Assembly (NCBI GenBank): GCA_938091985.1
Contig: CALKOE010000313.1
Span: forward strand, 1 to 13,154
DNA length: 13,154 nucleotides
Direction: 5' to 3'
Source: an uncultured Acidimicrobiales bacterium
GTDB taxonomy: Bacteria; Actinomycetota; Acidimicrobiia; Acidimicrobiales; Aldehydirespiratoraceae
Shown: positions 6,015 through 10,905 of the stretch, in pieces
How positions within the stretch are numbered: the stretch's first letter is position 1
Layout: every line of letters starts with the position of its first letter
Notes under the pieces: model-generated
The model's input: only the letters and a program-made list of their open reading frames with translations
What the model was told of the DNA's origin: nothing
Database searches by the model: none
Made by a program: the position numbers and the translations under genes

Positions 6015-6842
6015 TCAGCGCAGCTGCTGGCGACTGCTCACATCATCGAAGGGCAGGCCCGGCTCCGCGATCGCTGTCACTTCGATGCCGGTGAGATCGA
6101 GACGGCCACCGATCGTCGTGAGAAACGCGGTATCGGCCGCATCGGCCCCGGTAGCGATTCTCACGAGCGACTGCCGCGGCGCAAGGCCCGTGGGATCGAC
6201 CACGATCCATCGCCCGTCAACCAGCGCTTCCGTGACTGCGTGGAAGTCCATCGGGCTCAACCCGGGGGCGTAGACCGAGACAACGCGAGCAGCGACGTCG
6301 TTGGCCCGCAACAGCGCGCAGGTGAGATGCGCGAAGTCGCGACACACACCTTCACCAGCCATGAGCGTCGCCACCGCACCATCGGTCGGCCGAGACACTC
6401 CTGGCACGTAGAAGACCCGGGCCGCGACCCAGCCGGGAATCGCAGCGACCAACACGGCGGGGGTCAAGGATCCGAACTCCGAGCGAGCGAAGGGACCGAT
6501 GCGGTCGGACTCGCAGTATCGGCTCGGGCGCAGATAGCGGAGCCACTGAGTGTCGTCGACCGACGCCGGTTCGGCGTCGCCGTGGACGGTCGCGTGGTAG
6601 TCGATCACGAGCCGACCCGGCGTGACGTCGCGCAGCAGATGGACCCGCCCGTCGTGATCAGCTGCGACGTCGTCGACTCGGAGCGAGACACCGTCGAGCG
6701 TCGCCACCAACTGCTCGTCGACCGCATAGCCCGCAGCAACCCCGATCGCGAGCGCCTGCGTGGACTGATCGACCACGGTGGCTTCGATATGGGCACTGAC
6801 CACCCGTCTTTCGGGACGGGCGGCTCCCTCGATGTCGGTCAT
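6015..6842 (-). CDS. Transglutaminase-like (papain-fold) protein 2, last gene of the Anbu operon
   Basis: This 275-aa protein has the bacterial transglutaminase-like core (COG1305). The catalytic triad can be read: C167 in GEGVCRDFAH, H201 in MDFHAVTEAL and D216 in IVVDPTG. Residues 1-110 form an N-terminal strand-rich domain with the motif WLRYLRPSRYCESD at 100-113, typical of this subfamily. In bacteria these enzymes usually hydrolyse amide or peptide bonds rather than cross-link proteins. In this neighbourhood a role in cleaving or transferring a peptide made by the ATP-grasp enzyme has been proposed. The ATG is 6 nt after the Anbu stop, so the two are likely translated together. It is the promoter-distal gene of the operon. 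No signal peptide is seen, so it should act in the cytosol. Confidence 0.9.
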   Translation of the reverse strand: MTDIEGAARPERRVVSAHIEATVVDQSTQALAIGVAAGYAVDEQLVATLDGVSLRVDDVAADHDGRVHLLRDVTPGRLVIDYHATVHGDAEPASVDDTQWLRYLRPSRYCESDRIGPFARSEFGSLTPAVLVAAIPGWVAARVFYVPGVSRPTDGAVATLMAGEGVCRDFAHLTCALLRANDVAARVVSVYAPGLSPMDFHAVTEALVDGRWIVVDPTGLAPRQSLVRIATGADAADTAFLTTIGGRLDLTGIEVTAIAEPGLPFDDVSSRQQLR

Positions 6843-6848
6843 CGATGC

Positions 6849-7592
6849 TCAGCGGTACTGATCGAAGTCGAAGTCTGGCAGCGACTGAAAGGCCCGCCGC
6901 AGAGCCTCGCCCCAGCCTTCGGAAAGCGAGGAGAAGTAGTCATCGGTTGCCTCGATTCGGCGGATCGGTCGCGCCTCGAGCGAATCGGTCTCGTAGACGG
7001 AGAAGTCGATCGGCGCGCCGACCGAGAGATTCGCCTTGATCGTCGAGTCGAACGAGACCAGCAGCAGCTTCATCGCATCTTCGTAGGACATGGTCGGGTC
7101 GTAGGCCCGCAGGAGGATCGGGCGGCCATATTTCGTCTCGCCGATCTGCATGAACGGCGTGTCGGCCCCCGCCTCGATGAAGTTCCCCTCGGGATAGATC
7201 AGGAACAGTCGAGGCGGCATGCCGGCGATCTGCCCACCCACGATGAGTGTGGCGTTGAACTTGGATTCCGCCTGCTGCCCGCCCTCGAGGTGCCGAGCAA
7301 TCGTGTCACGCACGAGTGCTCCGATGAGCTCGGCGACCTGAAACATGGTGGGCACTTCGAGGATCGACGGCGACCGCTCCTCGGGCACCTTGGTCCGCTC
7401 GTCGAGCAGGCTGACCACCGACTGCGTCGTGCCGAGGTTGCCGGCGCTCATCACTGTGATCACGCGCTCGCCAGGCACCGACCACTGGTGCATCTTGCGA
7501 AAGACCGAGATGTTGTCGACGCCGGAATTGGTCCGGGTGTCGGACATGAAGACAAGCCCACAATCGAGCTGCATACCCACGCAATACGTCAT
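6849..7592 (-). CDS. anbu: Anbu proteasome-like peptidase (ancestral beta subunit, COG3484)
   Basis: The 247-aa product is an Anbu-type Ntn hydrolase, related to proteasome beta subunits and HslV. It begins MTYCVGM: removal of Met would expose the nucleophile Thr, so the ATG at 7592 is essentially fixed. SDTRT supplies D18 and FRKM supplies K33 (precursor numbering), completing the Thr/Asp/Lys site. SAGNLG (49-54) is the family glycine loop. Length fits the family. Anbu proteins form open, helical-type rings without a known unfoldase partner, and their substrate is unknown. Its neighbours ATP-grasp, alpha-E and two transglutaminase-like proteins are the known Anbu gene set. The start has no Shine-Dalgarno of its own and overlaps the last micro-ORF stop of a 17-bp repeat ladder (ATGA), so translation probably depends on re-initiation. 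Confidence 0.94.
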   Translation of the reverse strand: MTYCVGMQLDCGLVFMSDTRTNSGVDNISVFRKMHQWSVPGERVITVMSAGNLGTTQSVVSLLDERTKVPEERSPSILEVPTMFQVAELIGALVRDTIARHLEGGQQAESKFNATLIVGGQIAGMPPRLFLIYPEGNFIEAGADTPFMQIGETKYGRPILLRAYDPTMSYEDAMKLLLVSFDSTIKANLSVGAPIDFSVYETDSLEARPIRRIEATDDYFSSLSEGWGEALRRAFQSLPDFDFDQYR

Positions 7593-7637
7593 TGCTTGCC
7601 CAACATCACTGCTTGCCCAACATCACTGCTCGCCCAA
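7587..7637 (-). repeat. Three tandem 17-bp repeats spanning the Anbu start codon
   Basis: On the minus strand the units are TTGGGCGAGCAGTGATG (7637-7621), TTGGGCAAGCAGTGATG (7620-7604) and TTGGGCAAGCAATGACG (7603-7587). The first two differ at one base and the third differs from the second at two. The third includes the Anbu ATG and most of its Thr codon. A partial, one-base-shorter copy (GGGCAGCAGTGATG, 7651-7638) lies in the end of the upstream transglutaminase gene. The pattern looks like duplication of the original gene junction by slippage. Confidence 0.92.
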
Positions 7638-7640
7638 CAT
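7589..7640 (-). promoter_or_regulatory. Ladder of three five-codon ORFs with overlapping stops and starts before Anbu
   Basis: The transglutaminase 1 stop (TGA, 7642-7640) overlaps an ATG at 7640. That ATG opens MLGEQ-stop (7640-7623), whose stop overlaps the ATG of MLGKQ-stop (7623-7606), whose stop overlaps the ATG of a second MLGKQ-stop (7606-7589). The last stop overlaps the Anbu ATG as ATGA. Only the first ATG has a good ribosome-binding site, GGAGG at 7654-7650, 9 nt upstream. Ribosomes would reach Anbu by repeated termination and re-initiation. The pattern is directly visible; its use in the cell is inferred. Confidence 0.7.
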
Positions 7641-8455
7641 CACTGCTGCCCTCCGCTTCCCGCCTGAACTTGGAGTTCGACCTCGAGTGTCTCTTCGCCC
7701 GCGCCGTAGGTCACCCCACGGATCGGCGCCGCGGCTCGATAGTCGAGTCCGGTAGCGACACGAACGTAGCGGTCGTCAGGTGAGATTCCATTGGACACAT
7801 CGAACCCCACCCATCCAAGCCCGTCGATCCACGCCTCGGCCCATGCATGTGAGGCGTCCTGCTCGACCGTGTTGGCGAGAAGGAGGTAGCCGCTCACGTA
7901 GCGAGCGCTGTAGCCCAGGTTTCGCGCCGCCGCGATGAAGATGTGGGCATGGTCTTGGCAGACCCCGGCGCCCGCGTCGATCGCGTCTTCTGCGGAGGAC
8001 GCCACATCCGACTCACCCGGCCGGTACGCAACGTCGTCGCGGATGCGTGACGACAGGCTGTGGAGCCGATTGACGTCGTCGGATTCATCTCGGACGAGAT
8101 CACAGAAGCGCCGCACCCCCTTGCCAACGACTGTGCGTTCGGTCGCGCGCAAGTAGAACCACAGCGCGGTGTGGCCAAGATGCTTGGTCGCGACGCCGGC
8201 AGTGTCGAGCGTGTCGACTTCACCCCGGGCCGTGATCGTGGTTTCGGTCGCACCAGGCGTGAGGCTCACGAGCTCGACCCGATTGCCATAGTGGTCATCA
8301 AACGAGAGTTCGTGCGCTCCACCATCGACGGTGATCTCCCACCCGACCACAGTTTGGGTGGTCTCGTCGCGCGGCCGGAGCCGCAGCTCCTGCAACCCAT
8401 ACCGCACGGGGCTGGCGTAGCGATACGTCGTGGTGTGGGAGATGTTGAGGCGCAT
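7640..8455 (-). CDS. Transglutaminase-like protein 1 with N-terminal Bact_transglu_N domain
   Basis: The 271-aa protein has the two-part build of COG1305 members. An N-terminal strand domain (Bact_transglu_N, PF08379) starts with MRLNISHTTTYRYASPV and contains ELRLRPRDE (23-31). A transglutaminase core carries C166 in GAGVCQDHAH, H203 in ASHAWAEAWI and D219 in VGFDVSNG, a complete Cys-His-Asp triad. Members are thought to act as cytosolic amide hydrolases or peptidases. It shares the core but not the N-terminal domain sequence with transglutaminase 2, so the two are likely distinct enzymes and not a recent duplication. It starts 2 nt after the alpha-E stop. Its last codons hold the ribosome-binding site for the micro-ORF ladder before Anbu. 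Confidence 0.94.
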   Translation of the reverse strand: MRLNISHTTTYRYASPVRYGLQELRLRPRDETTQTVVGWEITVDGGAHELSFDDHYGNRVELVSLTPGATETTITARGEVDTLDTAGVATKHLGHTALWFYLRATERTVVGKGVRRFCDLVRDESDDVNRLHSLSSRIRDDVAYRPGESDVASSAEDAIDAGAGVCQDHAHIFIAAARNLGYSARYVSGYLLLANTVEQDASHAWAEAWIDGLGWVGFDVSNGISPDDRYVRVATGLDYRAAAPIRGVTYGAGEETLEVELQVQAGSGGQQ

Positions 8456-8457
8456 CG

Positions 8458-9399
8458 TCAGGCCGTGAACCGGTAGTCGCGTTCAATCGCACCGCCGAGC
8501 GTGTTGGTCGCCTTGATGCAATCACCCAAGAACTCGTGGAGACCGTCTTCGAAGATCGAGCCGATGTCGCGCCCCGTCAACCGCAGGAGCAGGTCGTGTG
8601 ACAGCTCGTGGCATCGGTGGTGCTCGCCATAGTCGGCGGCGAGGTAGCCGAGGTTCTCGTCGATCTTGCGATAGCAGAACACCAGCGACCGTGGCAGCTG
8701 TTGGTCGAGGATGAGGAAGTCTGCGATCCCCATCGCGCTGGCGTCGCCGGCGCTGCGCCAGCGATAGGCACGCTGCGCAGATACGGATCGCAAGATGGTT
8801 TCCCACTGGACGTTGTCGAGCGAAGTACCGACGTACGACGCCGACGGCAAGAGTACGTAGTACTTCACGTCGAGAATGCGGGCGGTGTTGTCCGCTCGTT
8901 CCATGAACGTGCCGATACGAGCGAAGTTGTAGATGTCGTTGCGGAGCATGGTGCCGTGCAGGGCCCCGCGCACAAGGGCGCTCTCACGGCGAATCACCCC
9001 GAGCACATCGGGCAGTTCCCGGTCGAGCACCGGCCGCGCCAACGTGTCTCGCACCGTCAACCAGGTGTCGTTCGTTGCCTCCCAGACCTCTCGAGTGAGT
9101 GCAGTGCGAACTTCTCGGGCATTGGATCGGGCAGCCTCGACGACAGAGCGCACGCTCGACGGATTGGTTCGATCACGCAGCAGAAAGTCGATCACGTTTG
9201 CCTGCTCGAACCGATCGTGACGCTCGAGGAATGCGTCCTTTTGTCCGGCGGTCGTGACGACCGATTTCCATTCCTTCTCGACATCGTCGGAGCGCGTGAG
9301 CGCGATCCGCATCCCGGCCTCGATCAGGCGGGCCGTGTTTTCGCTGCGTTCGAGATGGCGAAACATCCAGTAGAGGCCGCCGGCGGTGCGTCCGAGCAT
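8458..9399 (-). CDS. Alpha-E domain protein (DUF403, COG2307)
   Basis: This 313-aa, largely helical protein belongs to the alpha-E family (DUF403). The N-terminal signature is GLYWMFRHLERSENTARLIE (8-27). A second copy of the key motif, ERADNTARILD (167-177), matches ERSENTARLIE (17-27), so the protein appears to be an internal duplication of a helical unit. No enzymatic activity is established. Alpha-E proteins are nearly always encoded beside, or fused to, circularly permuted ATP-grasp enzymes and are taken to be their partners. The ATG overlaps the ATP-grasp stop by one base (TGATG, 9401-9397), with GGAGG 4 nt upstream, so the two are translationally coupled and probably made in matched amounts. 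Confidence 0.93.
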   Translation of the reverse strand: MLGRTAGGLYWMFRHLERSENTARLIEAGMRIALTRSDDVEKEWKSVVTTAGQKDAFLERHDRFEQANVIDFLLRDRTNPSSVRSVVEAARSNAREVRTALTREVWEATNDTWLTVRDTLARPVLDRELPDVLGVIRRESALVRGALHGTMLRNDIYNFARIGTFMERADNTARILDVKYYVLLPSASYVGTSLDNVQWETILRSVSAQRAYRWRSAGDASAMGIADFLILDQQLPRSLVFCYRKIDENLGYLAADYGEHHRCHELSHDLLLRLTGRDIGSIFEDGLHEFLGDCIKATNTLGGAIERDYRFTA

Positions 9400-10826
9400 C
9401 AGTCCTCCATCACCCAGGTGTCCTTGGTGCCGCCGCCCTGGCTCGAGTTCACGACGAGCGACCCGCGCTTCATGGCCACACGGGTGAGGCCGCCAGGAGT
9501 GATCCGGATGTTGTTGGGCGCGACGAGGGCGAACGGCCGAAGATCGACGTGGCGCGGAGCGAGACCGTTGCGCGTCAGGATCGGCACGGTCGACAACGCG
9601 AGGGTCGGTTGGGCGATGTAGTTCGCTGGCTTGGCCTTCAGCTTGCGGGTGAAGCGCGCAATCTCACGCTTGCTGGCAGCGGGGCCCACGAGCATGCCGT
9701 AGCCACCCGAGCCGTGGACTTCCTTCACCACCAACTCGGCGAGGTGCTCGAGCACGTAGCCGAGCGAGTCGGGCTCGGAGCATCGCCACGTGGGCACGTT
9801 TTGCAGCAGCGGCTTCTCACCGGTGTAGAAGTCGATGATCTCCGGCATGTAGGAGTAGACGGCCTTGTCATCCGCGATGCCGGTGCCTGGTGCGTTGGCG
9901 ATCGTGATGCCCCCTGAGCGGTAGACATCCATCACCCCCGGCACTCCCAGCTGGGAGTCGGGCCGAAAGGTCAGCGGGTCGAGATAGGCGTCGTCGACAC
10001 GTCGGTAGAGCACGTCGATCGGCTCGGGACCCTCCGTGGTGCGCATTGCGACGCGGCCATCGACCACCGAGAGGTCGTGACCCTCGACGAGCTCGGCGCC
10101 CATCTGATCCGCGAGAAACGCATGCTCGAAATAGGCCGAGTTGTGGATGCCGGGAGTGAGAACGGCCACGACCGGGCGACCGACCGTTCCGTGTGGCGCG
10201 GCCGCCGCCAGCGACGTGCGCAGATCGCGGGGGTACTCAGCCACCGGGCGGACCCGACTCTTCACGAAGAGCTCGGGGAACATCTGCAGCATCGTCTCGC
10301 GGTTCTCGAGCATGTACGACACGCCGGAGGGTGTGCGCGCGTTGTCCTCCAACACGTAGAAGTCGTTGTCGTCGGTTCGCACCAGATCGGTCCCGACGAT
10401 GTGGGTGTAGACGCCCCCCGGCGGAGTGAACCCGATCATCTCGGGGAGGAACGCGTCGTTGTCGGCGATCACTCCGGTGGGAATCCGGCCGGCTCGCAGG
10501 ATCTCCTGGCGGTGGTAGATGTCGTGAAGAAACGCATTGATCGCGCGGACTCGTTGCTCGATCCCGCGCTCTATGCGGGCCCACTCGCGCGCCGCGATGA
10601 TGCGAGGCACGATGTCGAACGGGATCAGACGCTCGTCTCCCTCTTCACTGCCGTAGACGTTGAACGTGATGCCGGTCCGGCGAAACAGCGCCTCGGCATC
10701 TGCCGACTTCTTCAGGAGTCGTCTCGGGTCCTCCTGCGAGAACCACTCGTCGTAGTTGCGATAGGGACGTCGCAGCTCGGTTCCGTCGCCGTGCATCTCA
10801 TCGAAATAGCCCGGGCGAACGTCCAC
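9399..10826 (-). CDS. Circularly permuted type 2 ATP-grasp protein (COG2308), first gene of the Anbu operon
   Basis: With the start at GTG 10826 the protein has 475 aa, usual for this family (DUF404/DUF407). It opens with VDVRPGYFDEMHGDG. Family blocks are EDNARTPSGVSYMLENR (160-176), LTPGIHNSAYFEH (223-235), the glycine-rich VKEVHGSGGYGMLVGP (367-382), RHVDLRPF (425-432) and SSQGGGTKDTWV (461-472). ATP-grasp enzymes activate a carboxylate as acyl phosphate and join it to an amine or thiol. This branch is predicted to be an amide or peptide ligase; substrates are unknown. A longer reading from TTG 10874 was rejected because the extra 16 residues do not look like the family and would cover the TAGGTT box. 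The gene is divergent from the lipoprotein-like gene by 93 bp, and the operon promoter must lie there. Confidence 0.93.
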   Translation of the reverse strand: MDVRPGYFDEMHGDGTELRRPYRNYDEWFSQEDPRRLLKKSADAEALFRRTGITFNVYGSEEGDERLIPFDIVPRIIAAREWARIERGIEQRVRAINAFLHDIYHRQEILRAGRIPTGVIADNDAFLPEMIGFTPPGGVYTHIVGTDLVRTDDNDFYVLEDNARTPSGVSYMLENRETMLQMFPELFVKSRVRPVAEYPRDLRTSLAAAAPHGTVGRPVVAVLTPGIHNSAYFEHAFLADQMGAELVEGHDLSVVDGRVAMRTTEGPEPIDVLYRRVDDAYLDPLTFRPDSQLGVPGVMDVYRSGGITIANAPGTGIADDKAVYSYMPEIIDFYTGEKPLLQNVPTWRCSEPDSLGYVLEHLAELVVKEVHGSGGYGMLVGPAASKREIARFTRKLKAKPANYIAQPTLALSTVPILTRNGLAPRHVDLRPFALVAPNNIRITPGGLTRVAMKRGSLVVNSSQGGGTKDTWVMED

Positions 10827-10833
10827 GCCGTCG

Positions 10834-10839
10834 AACCTA
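10834..10839 (-). promoter_or_regulatory. Putative -10 box (TAGGTT) for the Anbu operon
   Basis: On the minus strand TAGGTT, an exact TANNNT match, lies 7 nt before the GTG at 10826, so the operon message could be leaderless. The same bases could instead be read as a weak ribosome-binding site (GGTAGG) on a longer message. No good -35 is seen 16-18 bp upstream. Confidence 0.4.
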
Positions 10840-10905
10840 CCCACTTCGCGGCACTCGGGTCCGGCCGGAAACAAAGCGGTAACGAAACCTGATCCGGGTG
10901 CCGTC

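Follow-up and report, generated by a model that had tools for sequence, protein, structure and literature searches.

Tandem 17-bp stop-start repeats ahead of an Anbu gene in an Acidimicrobiales operon: a probable coupling-preserving junction minisatellite

Results

Three mini-ORFs chain the transglutaminase stop to the Anbu start

The subject of this study is a junction between two genes in a 13,154-nt stretch of DNA (contig CALKOE010000313.1, hereafter the window) from an uncultured Acidimicrobiales bacterium, where three near-identical 17-bp units at 7592-7642 lie between the stop codon of a transglutaminase-like gene (7640..8455) and the ATG (7592-7590) of an Anbu gene (6849..7592, MTYCVGM...), all on the minus strand. 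Read 5' to 3' on that strand, the junction consists of GGAGG (7654-7650), GCAGCAG, TGATGTTGGGCGAGCAG, TGATGTTGGGCAAGCAG, TGATGTTGGGCAAGCAA and TGACG. Tandem Repeats Finder placed the array at 7589-7651, with a period of 17 bp, 3.8 copies, 91% matches and a score of 105, and the runner-up among its seven arrays in the window scored 60. Unit 1 (7626..7642) holds the transglutaminase stop and the ATG of the first small open reading frame (mini-ORF), unit 2 occupies 7609..7625, and the final A of unit 3 (7592..7608) is the first base of the Anbu ATG. The transglutaminase gene ends in GGA GGG CAG CAG TGA (stop at 7642-7640, last residues GSGGQQ), and a further copy of the unit, GGGCAGCAGTGATGTT, one base shorter, spans this end.

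The units form a continuous chain from the transglutaminase stop through three mini-ORFs to the Anbu start. Mini-ORF 1 (7623..7643) reads (GTG) ATG TTG GGC GAG CAG TGA, encoding (M)MLGEQ; mini-ORF 2 (7606..7626) reads (GTG) ATG TTG GGC AAG CAG TGA, encoding (M)MLGKQ; and mini-ORF 3 (7589..7609) reads (GTG) ATG TTG GGC AAG CAA TGA, again (M)MLGKQ, all on the minus strand. The overlaps are TGATG three times and then ATGA, the last formed by the stop of mini-ORF 3 and the Anbu start, such that the stop and start codons of consecutive ORFs overlap at every step, as in translationally coupled pairs. The four TGAs (first bases 7642, 7625, 7608 and 7591) fall in frames 0, 2, 1 and 0. A G precedes each of the first three, so that a GTG (-1, GTGA) and an ATG (+2, TGATG) share a frame; because they do, each mini-ORF has five codons from its ATG or six from its GTG. 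A stretch of 34 nt from the transglutaminase stop thus holds a TGA in every frame, and each one is linked to Anbu; at the corresponding junctions of two relatives (L003 and L004), one or more of the other frames stay open for 450 nt or more.

A strong Shine-Dalgarno (SD) sequence is present only at the first start of the ladder. GGAGG (7650..7654, minus strand) lies 6 nt ahead of a GTG sharing bases with the transglutaminase stop; the end of GGAGG is 57 nt from the Anbu ATG. Using the 16S 3' end of two congeners, we computed an anti-SD pairing energy of -10.8 kcal/mol ahead of this first start and of -2.4 to -3.2 kcal/mol ahead of Anbu and the remaining mini-ORF starts; random places in the same locus had a median of -2.4 kcal/mol. 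A preliminary description of this DNA had listed the 17-bp repeats, the MLGEQ, MLGKQ and MLGKQ mini-ORFs, their chaining into Anbu and the single good SD, and each of these features held up in our analysis.

Close relatives have the junction without the repeats

The genus comprises seven genomes, five of which carry the operon, the window's included. The ladder is absent in all four congeners with the operon, which have no extra units where the window has three. L003 is the closest of them, its Anbu being 88% identical, and its junction reads GGGAGGGCAACA-GTGACGTACTGC: the GGAGG-bearing GGGAGGGCAACA stands directly ahead of the Anbu GTG, which overlaps the transglutaminase stop as GTGA with no insert. 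L004 has the same GTGA overlap, also without insert, and a weaker SD (-5.4 kcal/mol). In L005 and L006, counting from the transglutaminase stop's first base, the Anbu start lies 16 nt downstream, and more distant junctions in the family (L007) and the order (L011) have an ATGA overlap.

Because the nearest relatives have a plain GTGA and the array is restricted to the window's lineage, the array is best read, on this comparison, as a lineage-specific insertion of three 17-bp copies produced by duplication of an overlapping junction. The two halves of the unit are similar to the adjoining sequence, GGGCAGCA to the left and GTGACGTA to the right, a pattern that tandem duplication would leave. 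The duplication would have moved the Anbu start by 51 nt, and the ancestral GTG would have been kept and now open mini-ORF 1. A conserved regulatory element was rejected given the absence of the ladder in congeners. We also considered whether the transglutaminase-Anbu junction is a duplication hot spot. Tandem duplications were found at two of 94 distinct junctions of this kind and in 6 of 1,880 control windows, and the case for a hot spot is weak, since the window accounts for one of the two. The junction at L016 carries a perfect 17-bp tandem duplication of independent origin, CAGGTGCAGCAGTGAGC, which takes in the tail and stop of the transglutaminase and from which no ladder has formed.

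Similar ladders occur between unrelated genes

To place the array in context, we searched 397 genomes of the order for the pattern TGATG-N12-TGATG-N12-TGA. It was present in 47 of them, with 74 matches versus 19 for a reversed control (overlapping matches counted). After retaining arrays whose first two units were at least 80% identical, excluding short-period units and counting identical places once, 34 distinct near-identical 17-bp TGATG arrays remained, the window's included; five places among the 74 matches, where the units agree at 6 to 9 of 17 positions, fall outside this count. Sixteen of the 34, again with the window's, form a complete chain between an upstream ORF of 100 or more codons and a downstream ORF of 80 or more, although these are open frames in mostly GC-rich DNA and some may not be genes. 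For one of the 16 (L267), the chain test gave a direct link without a mini-ORF, and separate examination shows two. In viral contigs, the window's unit had no match.

Both flanking ORFs of 15 selected ladders were scanned against Pfam (E of 0.001 or better). Matches were found downstream in 15 of 15, upstream in 11 of 15 and on both sides in 11 of 15, representing 10 distinct gene pairs: an ABC transporter pair, modA-modB (in two species), cysN-cysC, wzm-wzt, CoA transferase-NMO, ECH-LplA, htpX-pspAB, wzt-methyltransferase, prmC-sua5 and hisG-CSD (cold-shock). These names are our reading of the Pfam domains, and the CSD match is below the Pfam cut-off. The pairs look like ordinary operon neighbors. 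Except within the modA-modB pair, the unit sequences of different ladders are unrelated, and the units of some ladders, unlike those of the window, carry their own SD (as in L136, with -9.3 kcal/mol at every start after the first). Because the same kind of array lies between unrelated genes in related genomes, nothing appears to tie the 17-bp stop-start array to Anbu, and this recurrence makes the ladder more interesting. In the window's own genome, a 16-bp tandem duplication, TGATGACTGAGCTGCC, lies between an FAD-binding oxidoreductase gene and a PAP2 gene (L198, 1501-1535 of G000:C50); there the stop and start remain close without step-by-step chaining.

Copy number at such junctions appears, from these comparisons, to change between sister species. 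At modA-modB in a sister genus, one genome (G027, modB 95% identical) has a plain TGATG with no extra unit, and another (G007) has three 17-bp units (17+17+17). A third (G016) has units of 18+17+17 with mini-ORFs of 11 and 5 codons and an intact chain. A fourth (G022, L306) has two extra ATGA-type units of 73 bp, 69/73 identical, in which one 49-codon mini-ORF leads to modB and the middle copy is skipped. Elsewhere, in G032, four mini-ORFs (6, 6, 5 and 5 codons) join two genes in diverged steps of 17, 17, 14 and 14 nt. The earlier proposal that copy number can change is thus borne out at modA-modB, where sister species differ by three units.

The surrounding operon

The identification of Anbu rests on strong matches to solved Anbu structures (phmmer; 5loy, E = 2.1e-88; 5nyj, 4.4e-73; 5nyf, 1.6e-72) and a Pfam Proteasome match (7.4e-07). 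Residues M1, T2, Y3, C4 and V5 are invariant in an alignment of seven sequences, the window's included, with Thr2 directly after the Met and no propeptide. The operon context is also that of Anbu, with ATP-grasp, alpha-E and transglutaminase genes. The upstream transglutaminase-like gene matches Bact_transglu_N (E = 2.3e-23) and Transglut_core (4.5e-22). It is preceded on the same strand by an alpha-E gene (8458..9399, Alpha-E 5.6e-91) and a circularly permuted ATP-grasp gene (9399..10874, CP_ATPgrasp_2 5e-166; its start codon is not settled), the stop of the latter overlapping the alpha-E start by one base. Downstream of Anbu, also on the minus strand, lies a second transglutaminase-core gene (6015..6842, Transglut_core 1e-17), divergent from the first; four other genomes (G002, G003, G004 and G005) likewise have weak matches to the first transglutaminase downstream of Anbu.

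The transglutaminase ends in Gln at 88 of 94 distinct Anbu operon junctions (loci L002-L109; QQ in 76), and at the same loci the C-terminal residue is Gln in 0 of 94 Anbu and 1 of 93 alpha-E proteins. Pup also has a C-terminal Gln. By analogy, a conserved C-terminal Gln on the transglutaminase, encoded beside an ATP-grasp amidoligase and an N-terminal nucleophile hydrolase, may be a processing or ligation site.

Discussion

Our results favor a model in which the array is probably a coupling-preserving junction minisatellite, tolerated and near-neutral, and not a dedicated dosage switch. An ancestral overlapping junction, GGAGG-6 nt-GTGA as in L003, would have been duplicated in tandem to give three extra 17-bp copies. 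With a unit of 2 mod 3 bases, each copy's start would be closed by the next copy's stop, leaving the chain intact at any copy number and leaving Anbu its own Met-Thr start, which the N-terminal nucleophile needs. Ribosomes finishing the transglutaminase, or loading on GGAGG and starting at the old GTG, would then terminate and restart three times before reaching Anbu. Some would probably be lost at each step, such that Anbu output would be somewhat below that of the unexpanded junction but would exceed what a plain 51-nt spacer allows. A side effect would be that out-of-frame ribosomes are stopped by the TGAs in the three frames and linked to Anbu. On the view that coupling falls with distance, a bare 51-nt insert would be expected to weaken it, whereas the ladder holds each step at the best spacing; a 2025 review puts the optimum at -4 to +3 nt and reports a 3- to 10-fold drop by about +40 (PMC12548453). 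The preliminary description had also proposed that ribosomes reach Anbu by termination-reinitiation, which the layout of the junction supports.

The frame logic follows from the length of the unit. At a GTGA/TGATG junction, the next copy's TGA closes a start only when the unit length is 2 mod 3 (1 in 3), and step-by-step chaining of a duplicated junction then requires nothing beyond the absence of an earlier stop. With 0 mod 3, the Anbu N terminus would be lengthened or Anbu left uncoupled; with 1 mod 3, the chain passes over one copy, and the extra copies must be even in number. Anbu is described as having no propeptide, its threonine being exposed once the Met is removed, and a modified N terminus abolished inhibitor binding in the experiments reported (PMC5666114). 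Units of 2 mod 3 would thus preserve both coupling and the Anbu N terminus at any copy number. It had been remarked that every unit shifts the frame and yet each stop meets the next ATG; this is true, but it follows from duplicating an overlapping junction with a 2-mod-3 unit.

Whether unit length has been selected can be asked of other periods. We searched for periods of 17, 16 and 18 bp in 397, 298 and 298 genomes, respectively, and found complete chains in 16/34, 4/20 and 1/20 arrays (the last among the matches listed). Compared with 17 bp, the difference gave p = 0.079 for 16 bp and p = 0.0018 for 18 bp (among the matches listed), the latter contrast being weakened because 18-bp repeats are mostly inside genes and dominated by in-frame coding repeats. 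We also surveyed all periods at 1,119 close co-directional gene pairs (2.0 Mb, two relatives' genomes). Of these pairs, 328 chain directly, 53 via one mini-ORF, 13 via two and two via three or more, most chained pairs having no repeats; single-step mini-ORF chains are thus common by chance and long chains are rare. In a first run of this survey (1.2 Mb, stricter identity threshold), duplicated junction motifs with periods of 2, 0 and 1 mod 3 numbered 5, 1 and 1, and an earlier, broader version gave 12, 14 and 2 (28 rows).

Several observations, the 18-bp caveat among them, weigh against the coupling-preserving interpretation. The final all-period survey found duplicated junction motifs of 2, 0 and 1 mod 3 in 8, 7 and 3 cases. 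Under a strict filter on third-position GC content (GC3) as a sign of coding, the arrays that counted as lying at junctions in the same 298 genomes were 4/24 (17 bp), 2/20 (16 bp) and 0/21 (18 bp, among the matches listed), and the differences from 17 bp were not significant (p = 0.67 for 16 bp and 0.11 for 18 bp, the latter again among the matches listed); over all 397 genomes, the filter left 8/34 for 17 bp, and it removed the window's own ladder too. Across the three tests, unit length modulo 3 gave no consistent signal of selection. The 73-bp unit of G022 is 1 mod 3 and is chained only since two copies were added. The same review also cites work in which spacing made no difference as far as +25, coupling persisted at +50 or beyond, and in vitro coupling was equal at +1 and +39 (PMC12548453), and such coupling at long spacing means that a plain 51-nt spacer might couple too. 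Finally, the array comes from one draft assembly, 66% complete, of a species represented here by one genome.

A simpler account is that the array is purely neutral: where genes are densely packed, duplications that are not multiples of three would survive nowhere but outside reading frames, for instance at junctions, which are rich in TGATG, so that neutral duplication would leave stop-start arrays behind and translation through the mini-ORFs would be irrelevant. This is possible, though we regard it as doubtful. The 16-bp arrays, which are not chained step by step, are similarly frequent (20 near-identical arrays versus 24 for 17 bp in 298 genomes), some are flanked by Pfam-matched genes on both sides (L198, L202 and L207), and the period counts of the final survey fit neutral tolerance. 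Against this, complete chains are commoner among the 17-bp than the 16-bp arrays, at the p value given above, and the mini-ORF starts are of the configurations established for coupling in the systems described (PMC6728339), such that ribosomes would be expected to use them. The preliminary description, in contrast, envisaged a dosage ladder, a selected translational attenuator whose slippage-variable copy number sets Anbu relative to its partners. The strong SD at the first start alone would be in keeping with this idea, since three extra reinitiations should reduce output, as would the copy-number differences at modA-modB and the diverged four-step chain of G032. We nonetheless think a dosage ladder improbable, because the array is absent from every congener with the operon, the same kind of array lies between unrelated genes and the frame preference is not consistent; as a conserved dosage step, the idea found no support in these comparisons.

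Two further readings carry less weight. Stop-start ladders could be a general, partly selected class, best built with 2-mod-3 units, that supplies frame-neutral, copy-number-adjustable reinitiation steps and also a frame catcher, in which ribosomes that slipped in the upstream gene would be collected by the TGAs in three frames and restarted for the downstream gene. This strikes us as distinctly improbable. The repeats might instead be DNA- or RNA-binding sites, a promoter or a terminator for Anbu, with the reading frames incidental, since direct repeats ahead of a gene are a common form of regulator site. A consensus scan, which does not reach other promoter types, found no sigma-70-like promoter or terminator at 7450-8500, and RNA folding of the junction was no better than that of shuffles (z = 0.60). 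The 141 bases around the junction match only their own locus in their own 66%-complete genome, and the units of other ladders are unrelated in sequence; a role as binding sites thus seems very improbable.

The ladder has partial counterparts among known systems. Mycobacterial interspersed repetitive units (MIRUs), about 53-101 bp long, also lie at gene junctions and carry a coupled ORF. As the review summarizes them, MIRUs are apparently mobile and present in many mycobacteria, and their ORF is coupled at -4 nt to the downstream gene, insertion likely having little effect on expression (PMC12548453). The window's units share with them a small ORF that overlaps the neighbors' stop and start, but they are 17 bp long and look like the junction in which they lie, other ladders have units of unrelated sequence, and we found no dispersed copies, the junction DNA having one place of match in this incomplete genome. 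On these points the ladder would not count as a MIRU, and the likeness is one of logic. Each rung amounts to one overlapping stop-start pair (ATGA or TGATG) of the kind described for termination-reinitiation (PMC6728339, PMC12548453); ordinary pairs have one such junction, whereas the ladder is a tandem series of mini-ORFs. The TAACTGA heptamer direct repeats of Beggiatoaceae and cyanobacteria resemble the ladder in being short and in tandem, in having stops in all three frames and in frequently lying immediately ahead of start codons, but as described they carry no start codons themselves, which the ladder units do (PMC4679880). Phase-variable repeats, including Moraxella cases mentioned in the same source (PMC4679880), are likewise slippage-prone and ahead of a start codon. 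Those cases lie between promoter and start, however, whereas the ladder repeats hold stops and starts, and a 2-mod-3 ladder unit leaves both gene frames intact at any copy number. We found no description of 17-bp stop-start ladders in the titles or abstracts of the literature searched.

In summary, duplication of an overlapping stop-start with a 2-mod-3 unit offers operon junctions a simple route to tandem repeats that leaves coupling intact. Such mini-ORFs will probably be overlooked by gene callers, which may also set start codons wrongly where ladders occur. The recurrence of ladders at unrelated gene pairs in one bacterial order supplies natural constructs of up to five reinitiation steps, some with an internal SD and some lacking one, which make the efficiency and reach of serial termination-reinitiation directly measurable.

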